Positions 4,946-22,332 of a stretch of DNA of 39,735 bases are shown here, piece after piece (the first letter of the stretch is position 1; the number at the start of each line of letters is the position of its first letter). The stretch comes from Chloroflexota bacterium (lineage in GTDB: Bacteria > Chloroflexota > Dehalococcoidia > Lucifugimonadales > UBA2985), in NCBI GenBank assembly GCA_002717805.1, contig PBBS01000006.1, forward strand, positions 32,840 to 72,574, in the 5' to 3' direction. Under the pieces are notes generated by a model, which worked only from the letters and a program-made list of their open reading frames with translations, was not told the DNA's origin and ran no database searches. A program made the position numbers and the translations under genes.

Positions 4946-7615
4946 ATGTCAGATACAGAGGCTAAAAAAGAAATCAACCCACGCTCTCTACAAGGCATAA
5001 GAGTCTTAGATTTTACTTGGGTTAGAGCTGGTCCATGGTGCACCAGATGGCTAGGGGCTCTAGGTGCCGAGATAATAAAGGTGGAATGGCCAGATAAACC
5101 TAACACTAGAGGGATAGGTGGGGCTGGCACTACCCCAGCAGGAATGACAATAGATCTAAACAACAGCGGGCACTTCAACGATACAAATGCTAACAAATTA
5201 AGCATTACAGTCAATACAAAAACAGCCAAAGGCATAGATCTTATCAAAAGGCTAATATCTATATCAGACATAGTCATTGAGAATTTCGCATATGGCGTAT
5301 TGGAAAGTTGGGGTCTGGGGTATGAGGATATGAAAAAGCTAAGACCGGACATAATCTATATGTCTATGTCCGGGTTTGGTCATACAGGGAGAAACCGTGA
5401 CTATCAAACTATGGGGCCTATAGCTCAAGCTCTTTCAGGATTAACATACACATCCGGACTACCAGACCACCCACCAGCGGGTTGGGGCTGGTCTTATATG
5501 GACGATACTGGAGGTATGTATGGTCTTATATACGCACTATCAGCACTTCGCCATAGAAATGTGACCGGGCAGGGACAGCATATAGATAAATCACAATGGA
5601 TTACTGGAGTAGGATTAAACGGTCCAGTATTTCTAGATATGCAGGCGAATAACAGAACAACTGAAAGACCCAACTATCCCCCTGGAAATCGTTCTCAATG
5701 GCCAAATTCAGAAGCAATAGATAACTACAGAGAGAGAGTAGCTGCTCCTCACAACTCTTATAGAACCTCCCCGCAAGGTTATAACGATTGGTGCACTATA
5801 GTCTGTTTCACTGATGAGGAATGGGAAAAACTAGTGGCATTGATGGGATCTCCTGAATGGGCCAAACACAGTAAATTTGCCAATCTAGAAGGAAGAATTA
5901 GAAATCAAGACGAAATGGACGCTGGTATAGAATCATGGACAAGTACTATGTCCAAATATGAAGTCATGGAGACCTGCCAGAGAAACGGTATAAGATGCCT
6001 GCCGGTGCAAAGCCCTTTGGATAGATTCGATAATGACCCTCAACTTAAACACCGGGAGATGTACAGACTTGTAGATCATCCATCCATGGGGAGCTGGCCT
6101 CTACAAAATGCCCCATTCAAAATGTCAGTGACTCCAGCATACAATAATCTCTCCGGGCCGCTAATAGGTGGGCATAACAAGAAGGTATTCGAAGGGCTTT
6201 TGGGAATAAGCCATAAGGAATTAGTAGATGGATTTGAAGAAGGTGTGTTCTGGCCAAATGACTTCGGCAGAGACGGATATCCATACCTGCAAGAAATGAT
6301 TGAAGACGAGTCTGAAGAAATTTGGGACGGGCTACCTCCTCAAGCAATGGTTCCTCCTGCACCTATAAGTCCCAATCCACTAGGCAACACTGGCCCGCTT
6401 GAGGGCCTTACTATTCTCGAAATGACGGATGAAAAAGGCCAATGGTGCGGAAAGCTTATGGCAGATTTAGGAGCTAACGTAATTAAGATTGAACCCCCTG
6501 GAGGTCAGTCAAATAGGTCTATAGGTCCTTTCTATAATGACATAGCAGATAAAGAGAAAAGTCTCCATTTCTGGCACTATAACACTTCAAAACGTAGTGT
6601 TACATTAGATATAAATACTGATGAAGGTAAAAACATATTCTTAGAATTAGCAGGGAAGGCAGATATAGTACTCGAGAGTTTGGCTCTAGGCTACCTTGAT
6701 AATTTGGGAATAGGATACGATCGAATCAAGATATCGAACCCGAACGTAATAATGTGCTCACTTACTCCTTTCGGACAAACTGGTCCATGGAAAGATTTTA
6801 AAACTAGCGACTTACTTCACCTAGGTGCTGGTGGTCAGATGGCATGCTGCGGATACGGAGATGAATACCCTGACGCCCCTCCTATCGCCCCAGGCGGGGG
6901 CCAAGCTTGGCATACGGGAAGTCATTTTGCTTGTATCTCTATATTGGCTGCCCTTGTATACAAAACAGTAACTGGAGTAGGGCAATACCTTGACGTATCG
7001 ATCCATGAATCCCTAGCGTTGACGACTGAGGCCCATGTGAATAGATATATATATACTGGAGAGGTCGCACGTAGGCAAACAGGGCGTCATGCGTCTCCAT
7101 CCCCAACTGACGAAACTCAGCATATATGCTCAGATGGTAAATATGTAAATGTAGCAGCACAAATTGTAAGCAGATTAACCACAGAGAATTTGGATATGCT
7201 TGGACAGTGGATGGACAGCTTGGGTTTAGACAAAGACTTACTCGAGGTAAAAAAGAGTGATCCAGACGCAATTACAGACAACGAAATCTTCCTATACATT
7301 ATCAATAGCATGACTAGAGACCAGATATACCATGGTGGTCAACAAAGAGGATTCAATATGGGTGCAGTAAGGTCGCCAGATGATGTTATGAAAGACCCAC
7401 ATCTAGAAGATAGAGGCTTCTGGACTGACGTCGAATATCCAGAATTAGGAATAACGCTTAAACACCCTGGACCAGGTGCCAAACTTATGGGCTCTCCTTG
7501 GAAAATATATAGTAGGGCCCCGCTCATAGGAGAGCATACCGAAGAAGTTCTTCATGGTGTGCTCGGATTCACAAAAGATAAGATTGCAAACCTATACGAA
7601 AAAGGCGTTTTGTAA
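4946..7615 (+). CDS. Tandem-domain CaiB/BaiF family CoA-transferase
   Basis: An 889-residue protein with two complete class III CoA-transferase modules. Half one (about 14-430) opens LQGIRVLDFTWVRAGPWCTRWLGALGAEIIKVEWP. Half two (about 480-885) opens LEGLTILEM and continues ADLGANVIKIEPPGG. Each half carries a TGxGQ motif (VTGQGQ, VTGVGQ). Family members move CoA between carboxylic acids through an aspartyl-CoA intermediate. Half one has Asp186-Asp187 before TGG at the expected position. Half two has Trp655-His656 there and no Asp, so only half one looks catalytic. AGGGGGTG precedes the ATG. The substrate is unknown; the nearby crotonases fit a role in acyl-CoA catabolism. Confidence 0.9.
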   Translation: MSDTEAKKEINPRSLQGIRVLDFTWVRAGPWCTRWLGALGAEIIKVEWPDKPNTRGIGGAGTTPAGMTIDLNNSGHFNDTNANKLSITVNTKTAKGIDLIKRLISISDIVIENFAYGVLESWGLGYEDMKKLRPDIIYMSMSGFGHTGRNRDYQTMGPIAQALSGLTYTSGLPDHPPAGWGWSYMDDTGGMYGLIYALSALRHRNVTGQGQHIDKSQWITGVGLNGPVFLDMQANNRTTERPNYPPGNRSQWPNSEAIDNYRERVAAPHNSYRTSPQGYNDWCTIVCFTDEEWEKLVALMGSPEWAKHSKFANLEGRIRNQDEMDAGIESWTSTMSKYEVMETCQRNGIRCLPVQSPLDRFDNDPQLKHREMYRLVDHPSMGSWPLQNAPFKMSVTPAYNNLSGPLIGGHNKKVFEGLLGISHKELVDGFEEGVFWPNDFGRDGYPYLQEMIEDESEEIWDGLPPQAMVPPAPISPNPLGNTGPLEGLTILEMTDEKGQWCGKLMADLGANVIKIEPPGGQSNRSIGPFYNDIADKEKSLHFWHYNTSKRSVTLDINTDEGKNIFLELAGKADIVLESLALGYLDNLGIGYDRIKISNPNVIMCSLTPFGQTGPWKDFKTSDLLHLGAGGQMACCGYGDEYPDAPPIAPGGGQAWHTGSHFACISILAALVYKTVTGVGQYLDVSIHESLALTTEAHVNRYIYTGEVARRQTGRHASPSPTDETQHICSDGKYVNVAAQIVSRLTTENLDMLGQWMDSLGLDKDLLEVKKSDPDAITDNEIFLYIINSMTRDQIYHGGQQRGFNMGAVRSPDDVMKDPHLEDRGFWTDVEYPELGITLKHPGPGAKLMGSPWKIYSRAPLIGEHTEEVLHGVLGFTKDKIANLYEKGVL

Positions 7616-15876: not shown

Positions 15877-16485
15877 ATGATGATAATCGATCCAAAACAA
15901 GAAGAAAGAATTTACTACATACTCACAGGAATAGTAGCACCAAGGCCAATCGCCTTCATATCTACTAAATCGTCAAAAGGAGTACATAACCTGGCTCCAT
16001 TCTCCTTCTTCAACGCTGTTTCCGCTATACCACCAACTATAGTTGTTGGTATAGGGAGGTACATTGATAGCAAACCAAAAGACACCCTATTAAACATAGA
16101 AGAAACGGGAGAATTTGTGGTCAATATAGTAAGCAATGAAATTGTCGAAGCAATGAATATGACGGCAGCAGAATTTCCTAACGATGTAGATGAATTTGAG
16201 ATTGCAGGACTGACTAAGGCACCATCTATTCATATCGATCCACCTAGGGTCGCTGAATCCCCAGTACAACTCGAATGTAAATTAAAGCAGGTTATCCAAA
16301 TAGGTGAAGGTTCCACAGAATCCGGACTAGTAATAGCTGAGATACTGTTGATCCACCTAAAGGACGATATCATTGTCAACAACAGGATTGATAATAGCAA
16401 ATTGAATCCTGTTGGTAGACTTTCGGGCGGAATGTATGCATATACCAACGAAACATTGTATTTGAAAAGGCCAATATACCCTTAG
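15877..16485 (+). CDS. Flavin reductase-like domain protein (split-barrel FMN-binding)
   Basis: A 202-residue protein with the typical opening of the flavin_reduct family: YYILTGIVAPRPIAFIST, then NLAPFSFFNAVSAIPPTIVVGIG and DTLLNIEETGEFVVNIV. Members bind FMN and either reduce it with NAD(P)H or act as oxygenase partners; no partner is next door. TGAGGAG lies four bases before the ATG. A hairpin plus T-run (16484-16513) directly after the stop marks the end of the lpd-flavoprotein unit. Confidence 0.88.
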   Translation: MMIIDPKQEERIYYILTGIVAPRPIAFISTKSSKGVHNLAPFSFFNAVSAIPPTIVVGIGRYIDSKPKDTLLNIEETGEFVVNIVSNEIVEAMNMTAAEFPNDVDEFEIAGLTKAPSIHIDPPRVAESPVQLECKLKQVIQIGEGSTESGLVIAEILLIHLKDDIIVNNRIDNSKLNPVGRLSGGMYAYTNETLYLKRPIYP

Positions 16486-16513: not shown

Positions 16514-16796
16514 ACAATATACCATCTCAGGCCATGCCGCTATACGTTATATATACAGCCCTATGTGGCGTAGTACAGCATATTAGCATACTTTCCTTAC
16601 GCTTTTCGTCTGTATGTCATCTGCCAAAAATCGCCAAACAATTACATAAAATCTGTTGATAAACATTGCGAAAACCTGTAACATAGCCCCCAGATAAACA
16701 AAGAATCAGCCTCCGATATGCGCCTATGACATATTCGGTCGCGTCCGCTCAGGTGCTTATAAGGATACTGTTGTACGATAGGAGAACGGCTGCACT
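16486..16796. other. 311-base intergenic region before the PEPCK-like gene
   Basis: It contains the terminator hairpin at its left end and a good sigma-70 promoter at 16656-16684. No reading frame with a ribosome binding site and no recognisable RNA gene is seen. The 112 bases between the promoter -10 box and the ATG form a fairly long leader that could hold a regulatory element; I see no known riboswitch motif. Confidence 0.5.
16656..16684 (+). promoter_or_regulatory. Candidate sigma-70 promoter of the PEPCK-like gene
   Basis: TTGATA (16656-16661) and TAACAT (16679-16684) are separated by 17 bases, matching the consensus at 5 and 4 of 6 positions. The expected transcript start near 16691 leaves a leader of about 106 bases before the ATG at 16797, which has AGGAGA about 11 bases upstream. 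Confidence 0.55.
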
Positions 16797-19055
16797 ATGC
16801 AACCTGGAAAGCAAGGCAAATCGCCTTTGGAAGGACCCAAAGTAAACCAGAAATTCTCTTCCGCATTAGAAGAACTGGTTTCCATAGCAAAAAGGGGTCA
16901 CAGCAGTGAAAGTGAATTCTTCAACCCTTCCAACGACTGGATCTCCAGCCAAATAAGAGTATTTCAAGATCTTCCAGATGAGCAAAGGGAATCGCTGCTC
17001 CAAGATGTAAAAGAACTTGAGAAACAGGCTCAACAGCTTAATGCTGAAGGAAAAGCGGCTCCAAAAGTTTGGCCCGATTCTGCAGTCAGGCTAGACAGTG
17101 GCGGCGTAGCATTCTTCAGCCAACTTGGCGTAGCTAGAAGACCAGACCTTACACAATATTTCATCGATGGTTTCAATAAAAACAGAGACGCTTTGGCATT
17201 CGATGAGTCCAATCAAGCTCTATTTGCTGAAATAATTCCACTTATAACAGATTACCTAAAAGAGAGTCTCTCAGCTGGTAATCGTGTAGTGCAAACCGAT
17301 CGACAAATAGGAGATGTGCCTGGAAAAAGTTTCCACGCAAGACAACTACTATTTGGCACGCAATACCCGCAGTTGCCCTATATGTGGAGGCAACTAACCT
17401 TCCCCCTACCTACTTCAGAACTACAGAGCCCTCCGGATATACTAGAAGTATCGATACCAAATTGGTTAACTGATCTTCCACTGCCAGATAACATTAGAGA
17501 AAAAGTCCTAGAAGCTGGTCTAGAAAGATTGGTCTTTAAGGCCCCTACTAAAGGATTATCTTTACACTTGGGCTTTGATTACATGGGCGAGCATAAAATG
17601 GGACCTCTATCGATAGCAATGTTCAAAGTCAAGGAAGCGGATGGACTTGCGTTGCAAGCGGCACTAAGCATGGCTCATGTTAAAACTATAAATAATGATC
17701 TAAGTAAGACGGCAATCATTACGACCGGTCCCTCATTACATGGCAAGAGCACCTTGACGGTTATGCTAGAGTTCGCCAAAGAAGGAGTAAGTAAGCTCGT
17801 CGGTCTAGATCTTGACCCTAGTGAAGGTGTATATCCTATGAACGATGACATAATACTCCTTCAACCAAGGGTTGGTGACAGTATCCCGTACGGTATATAC
17901 GGAACCGAAAACAGTTTCTATGCGGTACCATTCGGGCTGACTAAAGAGGATGATCCAATAACTTACGACGTCCTAAGAGGTACTGAAAACTCTCCAAACT
18001 CACAAGAAACCTTGGAGAACGTACCAATAAATGAGAATGGAACCGAAAACGCCACTCCCGACTTTATGAGCAACCCAGTTAGAAACATGAGAATGGTCCT
18101 ATCTCGATCTGGGCTTCTTAAAAGAAAAGGGGTAGACACACTGCTTGGCACTATCACAAAAAACCAAACTAATGATGCAGTTCACATTCCAATGGAACAT
18201 ACAGATAAGATCCTCTGGCAAGGCGTGATGAGGCAGAACACAGTAGTACCACCTCTAGTCAGATTAACTGCAAAACAATATATACGCTCCTTAATGTTTG
18301 GAGAGGCAGTTCAAACAGGAGCTTCCACCGGTGCTATAGGAAGGCCGTACGTAGAATACTTCTCAGATCCATTTATAATTGGCCTAGAAGACGATAATGC
18401 CAACCTACTGCATAAAATCCTGACCGCCATCGAAGGATCAGGGATGAATCAAGGTTTCTACATGTTTAATACTGGAGGAGTTGGAGCAGATACCAACGAA
18501 GAGGCAACGGGTGCGAATTATAAGAAAATAGCACGCGAGCTGACGCTTCAATTGCAAGAGGCATTACTTAGAGAAGCGGTTAAGTTTGAACCGGATCCAA
18601 TCCTCGGAATAGATATAGCTGTAGCAATTATCGACTCTAATGGAAAAGAAGTCATAGACCTCAGGCCTGACTGGCTGCCACAAAATATATACGGTTCAGA
18701 TGATTACAATAATAAGATTGATAGTCTCAAATATAAAAGATACTATGGGAGCAGCCAAGAAGATAAAGCGGGTATATTGAGATACACGAAGGCAAATAAC
18801 GAAATATTTGAAATTGATGACATCCCAAGCCCAAGAGACGAGAGAGAGGCCGCATGGCTAATCTCCTTCTACTGGTCCCTAGACCAAGTATATGAAAACA
18901 TACCATCACTGGACAATAGTATGTCTGGACCTGCGAAGCCCGACCTTTCAACTATCTCTGCAATACAGGAGAAGTTAAATACATCCTTAAGAAATGGCTT
19001 ACGTATCGGACTAGAAGCTAAGGAAACATTAGGCAAATTCGGCCTAAACACATAA
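16797..19055 (+). CDS. Divergent ATP-dependent PEP carboxykinase-like protein
   Basis: A 752-residue protein whose middle (about 180-600) follows the ATP-PEPCK core in order: FHARQLLFG; YMGEHKMG (262-269), like the YAGE[MI]KK segment; a P-loop GPSLHGKST (311-319), at the kinase-1a position; an acidic pair NDD (Asp350-Asp351); PPLVRLTAKQ (485-494), like PPVSRLTADQ; and MFNTGGVG (556-563), like LVNTGWNG. The match is by eye. Key differences: Met268 where PEPCK has the Mn-binding Lys213, and Leu314-His315 inside the P-loop. The N-terminal ~180 and C-terminal ~150 residues are extra and unrecognised. It could be a PEPCK with changed chemistry, another nucleotide-dependent kinase of that fold, or a pseudoenzyme. 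Confidence 0.6.
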   Translation: MQPGKQGKSPLEGPKVNQKFSSALEELVSIAKRGHSSESEFFNPSNDWISSQIRVFQDLPDEQRESLLQDVKELEKQAQQLNAEGKAAPKVWPDSAVRLDSGGVAFFSQLGVARRPDLTQYFIDGFNKNRDALAFDESNQALFAEIIPLITDYLKESLSAGNRVVQTDRQIGDVPGKSFHARQLLFGTQYPQLPYMWRQLTFPLPTSELQSPPDILEVSIPNWLTDLPLPDNIREKVLEAGLERLVFKAPTKGLSLHLGFDYMGEHKMGPLSIAMFKVKEADGLALQAALSMAHVKTINNDLSKTAIITTGPSLHGKSTLTVMLEFAKEGVSKLVGLDLDPSEGVYPMNDDIILLQPRVGDSIPYGIYGTENSFYAVPFGLTKEDDPITYDVLRGTENSPNSQETLENVPINENGTENATPDFMSNPVRNMRMVLSRSGLLKRKGVDTLLGTITKNQTNDAVHIPMEHTDKILWQGVMRQNTVVPPLVRLTAKQYIRSLMFGEAVQTGASTGAIGRPYVEYFSDPFIIGLEDDNANLLHKILTAIEGSGMNQGFYMFNTGGVGADTNEEATGANYKKIARELTLQLQEALLREAVKFEPDPILGIDIAVAIIDSNGKEVIDLRPDWLPQNIYGSDDYNNKIDSLKYKRYYGSSQEDKAGILRYTKANNEIFEIDDIPSPRDEREAAWLISFYWSLDQVYENIPSLDNSMSGPAKPDLSTISAIQEKLNTSLRNGLRIGLEAKETLGKFGLNT

Positions 19056-19119: not shown

Positions 19120-19818
19120 ATGCCACTGATAGGTATATCCTCACCAAATGAGCAAGAAGCCGAAAGATACTGCGAGGCCATCTCCAGTAGAGGATACGAT
19201 CACATTGTGATCGGACCTACTGGGGGGAAAACTCTACCAGAGCATCTTCACGGTGTGATACTAACAGGTGGATTAGATATAGATCCCAATATTTATGGAG
19301 AGGATACGGATCCTGAGGCGGATGTAAGAATATCCTCAGAAAGAGATGAATGGGAAATACCCATACTAAAGCAAGCTCTAGCCAACAATATGCCCATATT
19401 GGGCATATGCAGAGGAATGCAACTTCTAAATGTAGTATTCGGCGGTAAGCTAATACAAGACCTAAGTGGTCATAGGAATATCGAATACCCGGACGATAAA
19501 TCTGTTTTTCACCAGATATACCTATCCCCAGGAACCAAACTTGCTGCTATAATGGGATCAGGTGGATTCATAAGAGTAAATAGCCAACACCATCAAGGTC
19601 TGGGGGAGGCCCAGAAAGCCCCCTCACTTCTTGCGTCGGCATACTCACTCGATGATGGCATAATAGAGGCCATAGAGAGCCCAAACCACGATTGGGTAAT
19701 AGGGGTTCAATGGCATAACGAAATCGAGGAGGAATTGTATAAGACCTTCGGCAATATATTTCAGGCCTTCTTGGAAAGGTCTGATAGGTTCGAAAACAAT
19801 ATTAATTCACATAGCTAA
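19120..19818 (+). CDS. Gamma-glutamyl-gamma-aminobutyrate hydrolase-like (class I glutamine amidotransferase, peptidase C26)
   Basis: A 232-residue protein with the nucleophile elbow GICRGMQ (Cys97), the LTGGLDIDP motif (about 49-56) and the catalytic His199/Glu201 in GVQWHNE. This is the C26 hydrolase pattern (PuuD-like), cleaving gamma-glutamyl amides; HNE replaces the common HPE. No polyamine-catabolism genes flank it, so the real substrate is open. It lies 64 bases after the PEPCK-like gene and 60 bases before gyrA on the same strand, and may be co-transcribed with either. Confidence 0.85.
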   Translation: MPLIGISSPNEQEAERYCEAISSRGYDHIVIGPTGGKTLPEHLHGVILTGGLDIDPNIYGEDTDPEADVRISSERDEWEIPILKQALANNMPILGICRGMQLLNVVFGGKLIQDLSGHRNIEYPDDKSVFHQIYLSPGTKLAAIMGSGGFIRVNSQHHQGLGEAQKAPSLLASAYSLDDGIIEAIESPNHDWVIGVQWHNEIEEELYKTFGNIFQAFLERSDRFENNINSHS

Positions 19819-19878
19819 ATGTACAACGAGCTTTGAATGTGAACAAATGATTAACCTCACAGAAAAGAGGATACAGAT

Positions 19879-22332
19879 ATGGTGATAGAAGCAGAAAACA
19901 TCAAGCCGGTCCGCATAGAAGAGGAAATGCGGAGTTCCTATCTCGACTATGCCATGAGCGTTATAGTCGCTAGAGCTCTGCCAGATGCTAGAGACGGACT
20001 CAAACCGGTGCAAAGACGAATACTCTATGCTATGGACGAGCTTGGCATGAGACCTGGTACACAATTCAGGAAAAGTGCACGTCTAGTCGGAGAAGTTCTA
20101 GGTAAATATCATCCACATGGGGATAGTCCAGTTTACGACGCGCTGGTAAGAATGGCCCAAGATTTTAGCCTGCGATACCCACTGATCGATGGTCAGGGTA
20201 ACTTCGGCAGCATAGATGATGACCCACCAGCAGCTATGAGGTACACCGAATCTCGACTGGCAGCTATAGCCCAGGAAATACTCGCTGACATAGACAGAGA
20301 TACTGTTGATTTTGGACCCAACTTCGACGATTCCTTACAAGAACCACTCGTTCTGCCTTCCAGGATGCCAAACTTACTGCTGAATGGGGCATCAGGTATA
20401 GCGGTTGGTATGGCCACAAGCATCCCTCCTCACAATTTAGGCGAAATATGTGAGGCAGTAATACAATTAGTCGACCACCCTGAGATAACCTCAGAAGAAC
20501 TTTCTTCATACGTTAAAGGGCCAGACTTCCCAACGGGTGGAATAATACTGGGTAAAGATGGCATCTTGAATGCCTACACTAGCGGTAGAGGTCGCATAGT
20601 TGTTAGAGCGCGTGCAGAAATAGAAGATATGCCTAGAGGCGGCAGACAACAAATAACAGTCACTGAACTTCCGTATCAGGTAAATAAGGCGGCTTTGGTC
20701 GAGAAAATAGCAAACTTGGTTAAAGACAAGAAAATTGACGGCATTAGTGATATAAGAGATGAATCCGACCGTAAGGGAATGCGTGTCGTTATAGAACTTA
20801 GAAGGGATTCCCAACCACAAATAGTATTAAATAATCTTTATAAGCATACAGCCTTGCAGTCTGCATTCTACGTTAATGCATTAGCATTAGTAGACGGTCA
20901 ACCACAGGTGCTGCCGCTCAAGCGTCTGCTGCGAAGTTACGTAGACTTTAGAAGACAAATAATAACTAGGAGATCGCAATTCGAGCTGAAAAAAGCTCAA
21001 GACAGATCGCATATACTCGAAGGGCTTCGCACAGCCCTAGGTAATCTGGAAGAGGTAATAAATCTCATAAGGAATTCTGAAAGTGCAGAAGCAGCAAGAC
21101 AGGGATTGATGACTGAATATTCCCTCACTCAAATACAAGCCCAAGCTATATTAGATATGCAACTAAGAAGGATTGCCGCTCTAGAGAGAGAAAGAATAGA
21201 AGAAGAATTTCAATCTCTCCAAAAAACTATATCTGAACTACAAGAGTTACTAGATGATCAGAATAAGATCATGCGAGAGGTTAAGAAAGAAACTAGAAAA
21301 CTCAGCAAAGACTATGGAGATAATAGAAGAACCGAGATATTGGATGAAGCTCCTGACGATCCAACCAGAGAGGATCTAATACCCCATCAAGAAATGGTGG
21401 TCACGTTAACACAACGCGGATACATTAAACGGATGCCTCTTAGTACCTACAAGGCCCAACATCGTGGAGGCAAAGGCATTATAGGAATGGCTACAAGAGA
21501 AGCTGATTTCCTACAGCATCTCTTAGTAGCAGATACTCATGAGAGGCTCATGTTTTTCACTAATCTGGGAAAAGTTTATTCAATTCCTTGTTACGACCTA
21601 CCACAAGATATAACGAGATCGACTAGAGGTCTATCTATAGTAAATCTTCTACCCGTAGCCTCAGGAGAGCGAGTAACAGCCATCGTCAAAACTGAGAAAA
21701 ACAATACGTCCGGTTATATAGTACTTGCAACCCGTATGGGGGAAATAAAGAGAATGATGTTCTCATCATTGGCCAATATAAGAAGCAACGGATTAAGAAC
21801 TATGGACCTAGAACCTGGAGACGAACTTGTGTCAGCATGGCGTGCTCAGGAGTTAGACGAGATTGTAATCGTCAGCGCCGGCGGGATGGCAGTAAGATTC
21901 CCAGTAACAGACCTCATGGTCCGAAGTCGCTATGCAGGCGGTGTGAGAGGCATAAAACTCGAACCTGATGATAAAGTTGTTTCTATGGATGTGGTATTAC
22001 AAGGAGCACAATTACTCGTAATAAGCCAAAATGGTTTCGGAAAGCTCACACCTATACAAGCTTATAGAAGAACAGCTCGAGGAGCCAAAGGCGTTAGGAC
22101 ATTACGCATAACAGACAAAACTGGCCCAGTAGCTGCTGCTCACCTAATATTAGATGTCACCGAAGTAATGCTAGTATCCTCTAAAGGCATCATAATCAGG
22201 ATGCCACTGTCTGACATACCTGTCAAAGGACGATATACACAAGGTGTATGGATGATGAGGCCAAGCGGCAATGACTACGTTATAACCGTAGCAAGTATGA
22301 AAAACGGGACTGGGGAGAATAAGCAAGACTAG
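19879..22332 (+). CDS. gyrA: DNA gyrase subunit A
   Basis: An 817-residue type IIA topoisomerase subunit that cuts and rejoins DNA during negative supercoiling. The catalytic tyrosine is Tyr122 (AAMRYTE). The quinolone-determining stretch [17 protein letters not shown] has the wild-type-like Ser and Asp-type context. The coiled-coil arm is followed by the beta-pinwheel C-terminal domain, with a GyrA box QHRGGKG (canonical QRRGGKG, one change). The length is normal. AGAGGATAC precedes the ATG. gyrB is not adjacent. It converges with the inositol-phosphatase gene with only 15 bases between stops and no visible terminator. Confidence 0.96.

Follow-up and report, generated by a model that had tools for sequence, protein, structure and literature searches.

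A Chloroflexota protein family with a PEP carboxykinase fold and an altered metal site

The window analyzed here, a stretch of 39,735 nucleotides from a Chloroflexota genome assembly (1.32 Mb, 87% complete), contains on its forward strand a genuine gene for a protein of 752 amino acids (P0001, Table 1). It lies between a flavin-reductase-like gene, which ends at 16485, and a peptidase-C26 gene, which starts at 19120. An AGGAG element comparable to its ribosome-binding site also precedes the genes of several relatives. The intergenic gap to the upstream gene is 311 bp, which makes a separate transcript plausible. The promoter assigned to the gene by a first-pass annotation of the window corresponds to a single 9/12 match at 16656-16684, and the region contains 10 such sites where 9.8 are expected by chance. 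Promoter and terminator motifs around the gene show no excess over the chance level, no conservation of the upstream region was found in relatives, and an Rfam search of the locus gave no match.

Downstream on the same strand (19120-22332) lie the gene of the C26 peptidase, which is glutamine amidotransferase-like, and gyrA, with spacings of about 60 bp. Within the taxonomic family of the source genome, the C26 peptidase is found downstream in four of five genomes and gyrA in all five, and this preserved order suggests that the two are co-transcribed with the 752-aa gene. A comparison of gene neighborhoods across families, which left out three loci that could not be anchored, revealed no partner kept beyond the taxonomic family of the source genome, and none that indicates a pathway.

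Table 1. Positions in the window of the 752-aa gene and of the features of its product; residue equivalences refer to E. coli PEPCK.
Feature	Position	Strand	Basis or remark
Ribosome-binding site AGGAG	16780..16784	+	12 bp 5' of ATG
CDS of PEPCK-fold protein, 752 aa	16797..19055	+	ATG start; full length kept in sequences examined
Complete PEPCK fold, residues 25-678	16869..18830	+	VIA-align to 2pc9_B
Arg114, equivalent of substrate Arg65	17136..17138	+	R in all aligned rows of all groups; gaps in 2 group 2 rows
Y-x-G-E-H-K-M-G, residues 262-269	17580..17603	+	26/26
Gln287, replacing Mn ligand His232	17655..17657	+	Q in 26/26; same register in hhalign
P-loop GPSLHGKST, residues 311-319	17727..17753	+	26/26
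N-D-D, residues 349-351; Asp350 at the position of Asp269, kinase-2 / Mn ligand (register uncertain by one)	17841..17849	+	26/26
Val377, replacing ATP-phosphate Lys288	17925..17927	+	25 V and 1 M of 26; same register in hhalign
Arg432, equivalent of phosphate-binding Arg333	18090..18092	+	26/26
C-terminal tail, residues 679-752, helical, unmatched to PEPCK	18831..19052	+	Fold alignment; end poorly conserved

By fold and by profile, the 752-aa protein is a distant member of the PEP carboxykinase (PEPCK) superfamily, as the first-pass annotation had proposed. Its sole Pfam match is PEPCK_ATP (PF01293), which scores 44.9 bits (cut-off 26.5) with an E value of 8.7e-12, and the same model matches 17/17 family members. 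The NCBIfam PEPCK model NF006821 gives 148 bits against a cut-off of 369, which places the protein below the threshold for ATP-PEPCK proper. When the PDB was searched by sequence, neither the 752-aa protein on its own nor the profile of its family matched a PEPCK, so the link to PEPCK has to be made through Pfam and NCBIfam, hhalign or structure. In hhalign the family profile matches canonical PEPCK at 97.2% (E 4e-11) and the divergent Dehalococcoidia PEPCKs, referred to below as groups 2 and 3, at 99.95% (E 1.7e-37).

An AlphaFold model built from 17 family rows reached only a mediocre pLDDT of 72.8; after the addition of group 2 and group 3 rows, giving 36 alignment rows, the pLDDT was 87 and the pTM 0.89. 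All 50 matches listed in each of the fold searches with this model are PEPCKs. The best of them is the Thermus ATP-PEPCK 2pc9_B, to which VIA-align superimposes model residues 26-677 with a Z score of 26.4, an rmsd of 3.2 and 488 of 511 residues aligned, the end of the aligned range falling at 677-680. The similarity to the fold of GTP-PEPCK is lower (Z ~20), and the GTP-PEPCK profile PF00821 has no match in the source genome at E 0.001. HPr kinase/phosphorylase has been placed in the same fold group as PEPCK (PMC1079889); Pfam gives PEPCK_ATP alone for the 752-aa protein, and HprK is absent among the top fold matches listed.

The unusual length of the protein had been ascribed to large unrecognized extensions at its ends. 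Since the two-lobed PEPCK fold spans residues ~25-678, the protein cannot be described as a PEPCK core flanked by large foreign ends. The extra length consists chiefly of insertions within the fold, plus the helical C-terminal tail, and only ~24 N-terminal and ~74 C-terminal residues lie outside.

To compare the active sites, we aligned E. coli Pck and a further 26 PEPCK-like proteins jointly with 26 full or nearly full-length members of the family, one of which is the window protein. The roles of the E. coli residues in carboxylate, phosphate, ATP and Mn binding are those known from PEPCK structures. The substrate residues Arg65, Tyr207, Lys212, Ser250 and Arg333 are all present and invariant in the family, as Arg114, Tyr262, Lys267, Ser313 and Arg432, respectively. 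The substrate arginine near the N-terminus, earlier thought to be missing, is thus in place. Within the Y-x-G-E-H-K-M-G motif, Gly209 is likewise retained as Gly264, and Met211 has become His266, in 26/26 members.

In PEPCK, an enzyme-bound Mn2+ ion stabilizes the enolate and is needed for the reaction (PMC8100219, PMC10441589). The ligand set Lys213/His232/Asp269 of this ion corresponds to Met268/Gln287/Asp350 in every one of the 26 members, which means that two of the three protein ligands are lost. The methionine at the Lys213 position (17598-17600) had been recognized in the first-pass annotation, and the alignment does not restore the lysine. The exchange of His232, which remains a histidine in canonical PEPCK and in groups 2 and 3, had been overlooked, as had that of Lys288, whose position holds a lysine in every other aligned group; His232 to Gln287 is the most telling of the changes missed. 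That annotation would have yielded to a lack of any PEPCK match or to an alignment restoring both the lysine and the arginine; PEPCK is matched by the profile and fold searches, and of the two residues only the arginine is recovered.

The P-loop retains Ser250, Gly253 and Lys254 (Ser313 and Lys317 for the first and last of these) and has a conservative exchange of Thr255 to Ser318, while Gly251-Thr252 is replaced by Leu314-His315 throughout the family, in agreement with what had been read from the window protein. None of the 26 members has the canonical G-L-S-G-T-G-K-T-T, and all have the generic Walker A pattern GxxxxGK(S/T). The histidines 257, 266 and 315 are new and invariant in the family, and Phe413, which appears as Phe526, is invariant in the family alignment as well. 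Residue 294, also singled out at first, is a histidine in the window protein but an arginine in nearly all relatives.

The family consists of ~750-aa proteins of SAR202-type Chloroflexota, with 54-63% identity to the window protein; it is strongly conserved and so far found only in some members of this phylum. The gene is present in 75 of the 250 genomes of the order (31/95 of those of good quality, 37/97 genera), and all five genomes of the source's taxonomic family carry it; more than one copy per genome is rare. It is patchier in the class-level sampling (12/393 genomes), and in a phylum sampling of 400 genomes at E 1e-20 none has it except the source genome itself. In a scan covering 84,980 species genomes, whose search patterns can detect no more than close relatives, matches were confined to Chloroflexota, and the relatives that carry names are MAGs from SAR202 and from other Chloroflexota. 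The pairwise dN/dS values within the family, 0.05-0.16, indicate strong purifying selection on the protein. Two family members (G784:C49 and G867:C94) contain one internal stop each (TAG and TAA), representing either assembly errors or recent pseudogenes. A literature search found no paper on the ~750-aa family or on PEPCK in SAR202.

Closest by profile, in the combined profile of groups 2 and 3, is group 2, which comprises ~500-aa divergent Dehalococcoidia proteins and haloarchaeal 'PEPCK (ATP)'. Its members, which fall short of the 752-aa family by 250 residues, share with it the Gly-Thr-Glu...Tyr motif, x-Asp-Asp and Asn-x-Arg, but retain Lys-Lys, the metal-binding histidine, GLS(G/A)TGK(T/S) and Lys288. 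The haloarchaeal plasmid homologues resemble group 2 at the active-site positions. Group 3 (~540 aa; L018:1279-2898(-), L036:1021-2640 and L037:1021-2538) has the same exchange of Lys213 to Met, in GEVKMG, but keeps His232, GLSGTGKTT and Lys288 and forms a separate branch. G054, one of the genomes with the group 3 form, is assigned to family f41, in which the other genomes often have the 750-aa form instead. The tree unites the 752-aa family in a single clade (100/100), whose stem is very long at 5.5 changes per site. A joint clade with group 3 is not rejected by the AU test (p 0.287, with the long branches flagged), so the common Lys to Met exchange is not established as proof of a shared origin.

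With the canonical ATP-PEPCKs (E. coli Pck, PDB 1AYL; Thermus 2PC9), the 752-aa protein has the full fold in common (Z 24-26) at 17-20% identity in the structural alignment. The family shares with them the equivalents of Arg65, Tyr207, Lys212, Ser250, Lys254, Asp269 and Arg333, whereas Lys213, His232, Lys288 and the Gly-Thr of the P-loop are replaced. In view of the Mn ligands, the P-loop, Lys288 and the NCBIfam score, the family should not be filed as ATP-PEPCK proper.

The metabolic gene content of the carriers bears on what such a protein could do. No second PF01293 match was found in the source genome, and no other ATP-PEPCK, GTP-PEPCK or PEP carboxylase in the 25 carrier genomes, although every absence given here is limited by the incompleteness of the MAGs. 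PEP carboxylase (PF00311) and GTP-PEPCK (PF00821) were undetected in all 48 genomes examined from the order and class. A match to FBPase, by PF01950 or PF03320, is present in 17/25 carriers against 7/20 non-carriers of the same order (Fisher p 0.038, uncorrected for kinship). Genes for PPDK or PEP-synthase-like proteins occur in 17/25 carriers and 9/20 non-carriers (p 0.14), that is, a distribution complementary to that of the 752-aa gene is not seen, and in these 17 carriers a second PEP-forming enzyme would be unneeded. Two carriers (G003 and G053) have FBPase and no PPDK/PEP synthase match, so that PEP formation there has no PEPCK-type candidate other than the 752-aa-type protein. Six others (G000, G001, G004, G030, G052 and G058), one of which is the source genome, have no convincing match for FBPase or for PPDK/PEP synthase, and a purely gluconeogenic role thus does not fit.

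We consider the 752-aa protein a putative active, clade-specific PEPCK-fold phosphotransferase with a rebuilt metal site, probably still operating at the PEP-oxaloacetate node, and give this reading a probability of roughly 0.45 on the basis of the sequences and the model. The protein would bind Mg-ATP together with a small carboxylate of the 2-oxo or enol type, moving the γ-phosphate between the two; as the only PEPCK-type enzyme of the carrier cells, it would most likely still interconvert oxaloacetate and PEP, in either direction. The enolate could then be stabilized by a metal that is ligated in a different way or is of the hard Mg type (Asp350, Gln287 and waters) and/or by the invariant His257, His266 and His315, in place of the classical Lys/His-bound Mn. 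The fold and homology, the residues invariant in 26 members, the dN/dS values, the single copy, the lack of a detected other PEPCK or PEP carboxylase, the excess of FBPase and the two carriers with FBPase but no PPDK/PEP synthase match all point in this direction. Against it count the lost Mn ligands, which are central to the classical PEPCK mechanism and at which single mutants of yeast PEPCK are severely impaired, as well as the PPDK/PEP synthase genes in 17/25 carriers, the six carriers with neither pathway marker and the lack of an operon partner conserved beyond the source's taxonomic family.

The same loss of two Mn ligands, with the P-loop, the kinase-2 Asp and the carboxylate Arg kept, suits the main rival, a new small-molecule kinase, which we hold to be possible at a lower probability. 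Here the fold and carboxylate pocket would be reused to phosphorylate another carboxylic acid, such as a hydroxy acid, with no decarboxylation and with the Mg-ATP site alone, much as in HPr kinase, which is likewise a P-loop kinase with this fold but lacks both the OAA-type Mn site and the PEPCK N-domain. The very long stem branch, the three new invariant histidines and the retention of the gene in genomes without FBPase or PPDK matches are consistent with this, but every residue that contacts OAA/PEP in PEPCK is retained and no neighboring gene points to another substrate. A non-catalytic nucleotide or metabolite sensor, the pseudoenzyme envisaged in the first-pass annotation, would account for the loss of the two ligands and of Lys288; it is improbable, however, given that the Walker A Lys/Ser, the kinase-2 Asp, Arg114, Lys267 and Arg432 are invariant in 26/26 members and that dN/dS is low, and no conserved partner gene was found. 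What that annotation said of a PEPCK fold with altered catalytic positions holds. Least probable is an ordinary ATP-PEPCK of cosmetic divergence, binding Mn and working like the E. coli enzyme: the fold match, the score above the Pfam cut-off and the Arg65 equivalent would fit, but Lys213 and His232 are replaced in every member, the NCBIfam score is far under the cut-off and the clade is separate.

PEPCK acts at the junction of PEP and oxaloacetate, and the Mn that it binds through Lys, His and Asp is regarded as essential for enolate stabilization. A family that has dispensed with two of these ligands and kept the substrate pocket sets an alternative route to the same chemistry against conversion to a new kinase. 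Taking both outcomes together, the sequences make it fairly probable that the family is either a PEPCK-fold class that makes or uses PEP without classical Lys/His-bound Mn2+ or a new carboxylate kinase, and that its carriers, in a large SAR202-type lineage known mostly from uncultured members, have no other PEPCK-type enzyme. Automatic annotation based on Pfam would name the family PEPCK, and models of the metabolism of SAR202 and its Chloroflexota relatives may for this reason merely presume gluconeogenesis or anaplerosis.

Elsewhere in the window, positions 4946-7615 of the same strand encode a protein of 889 aa whose single chain contains CoA_transf_3 stretches twice and which is probably a fused tandem family III CoA-transferase.
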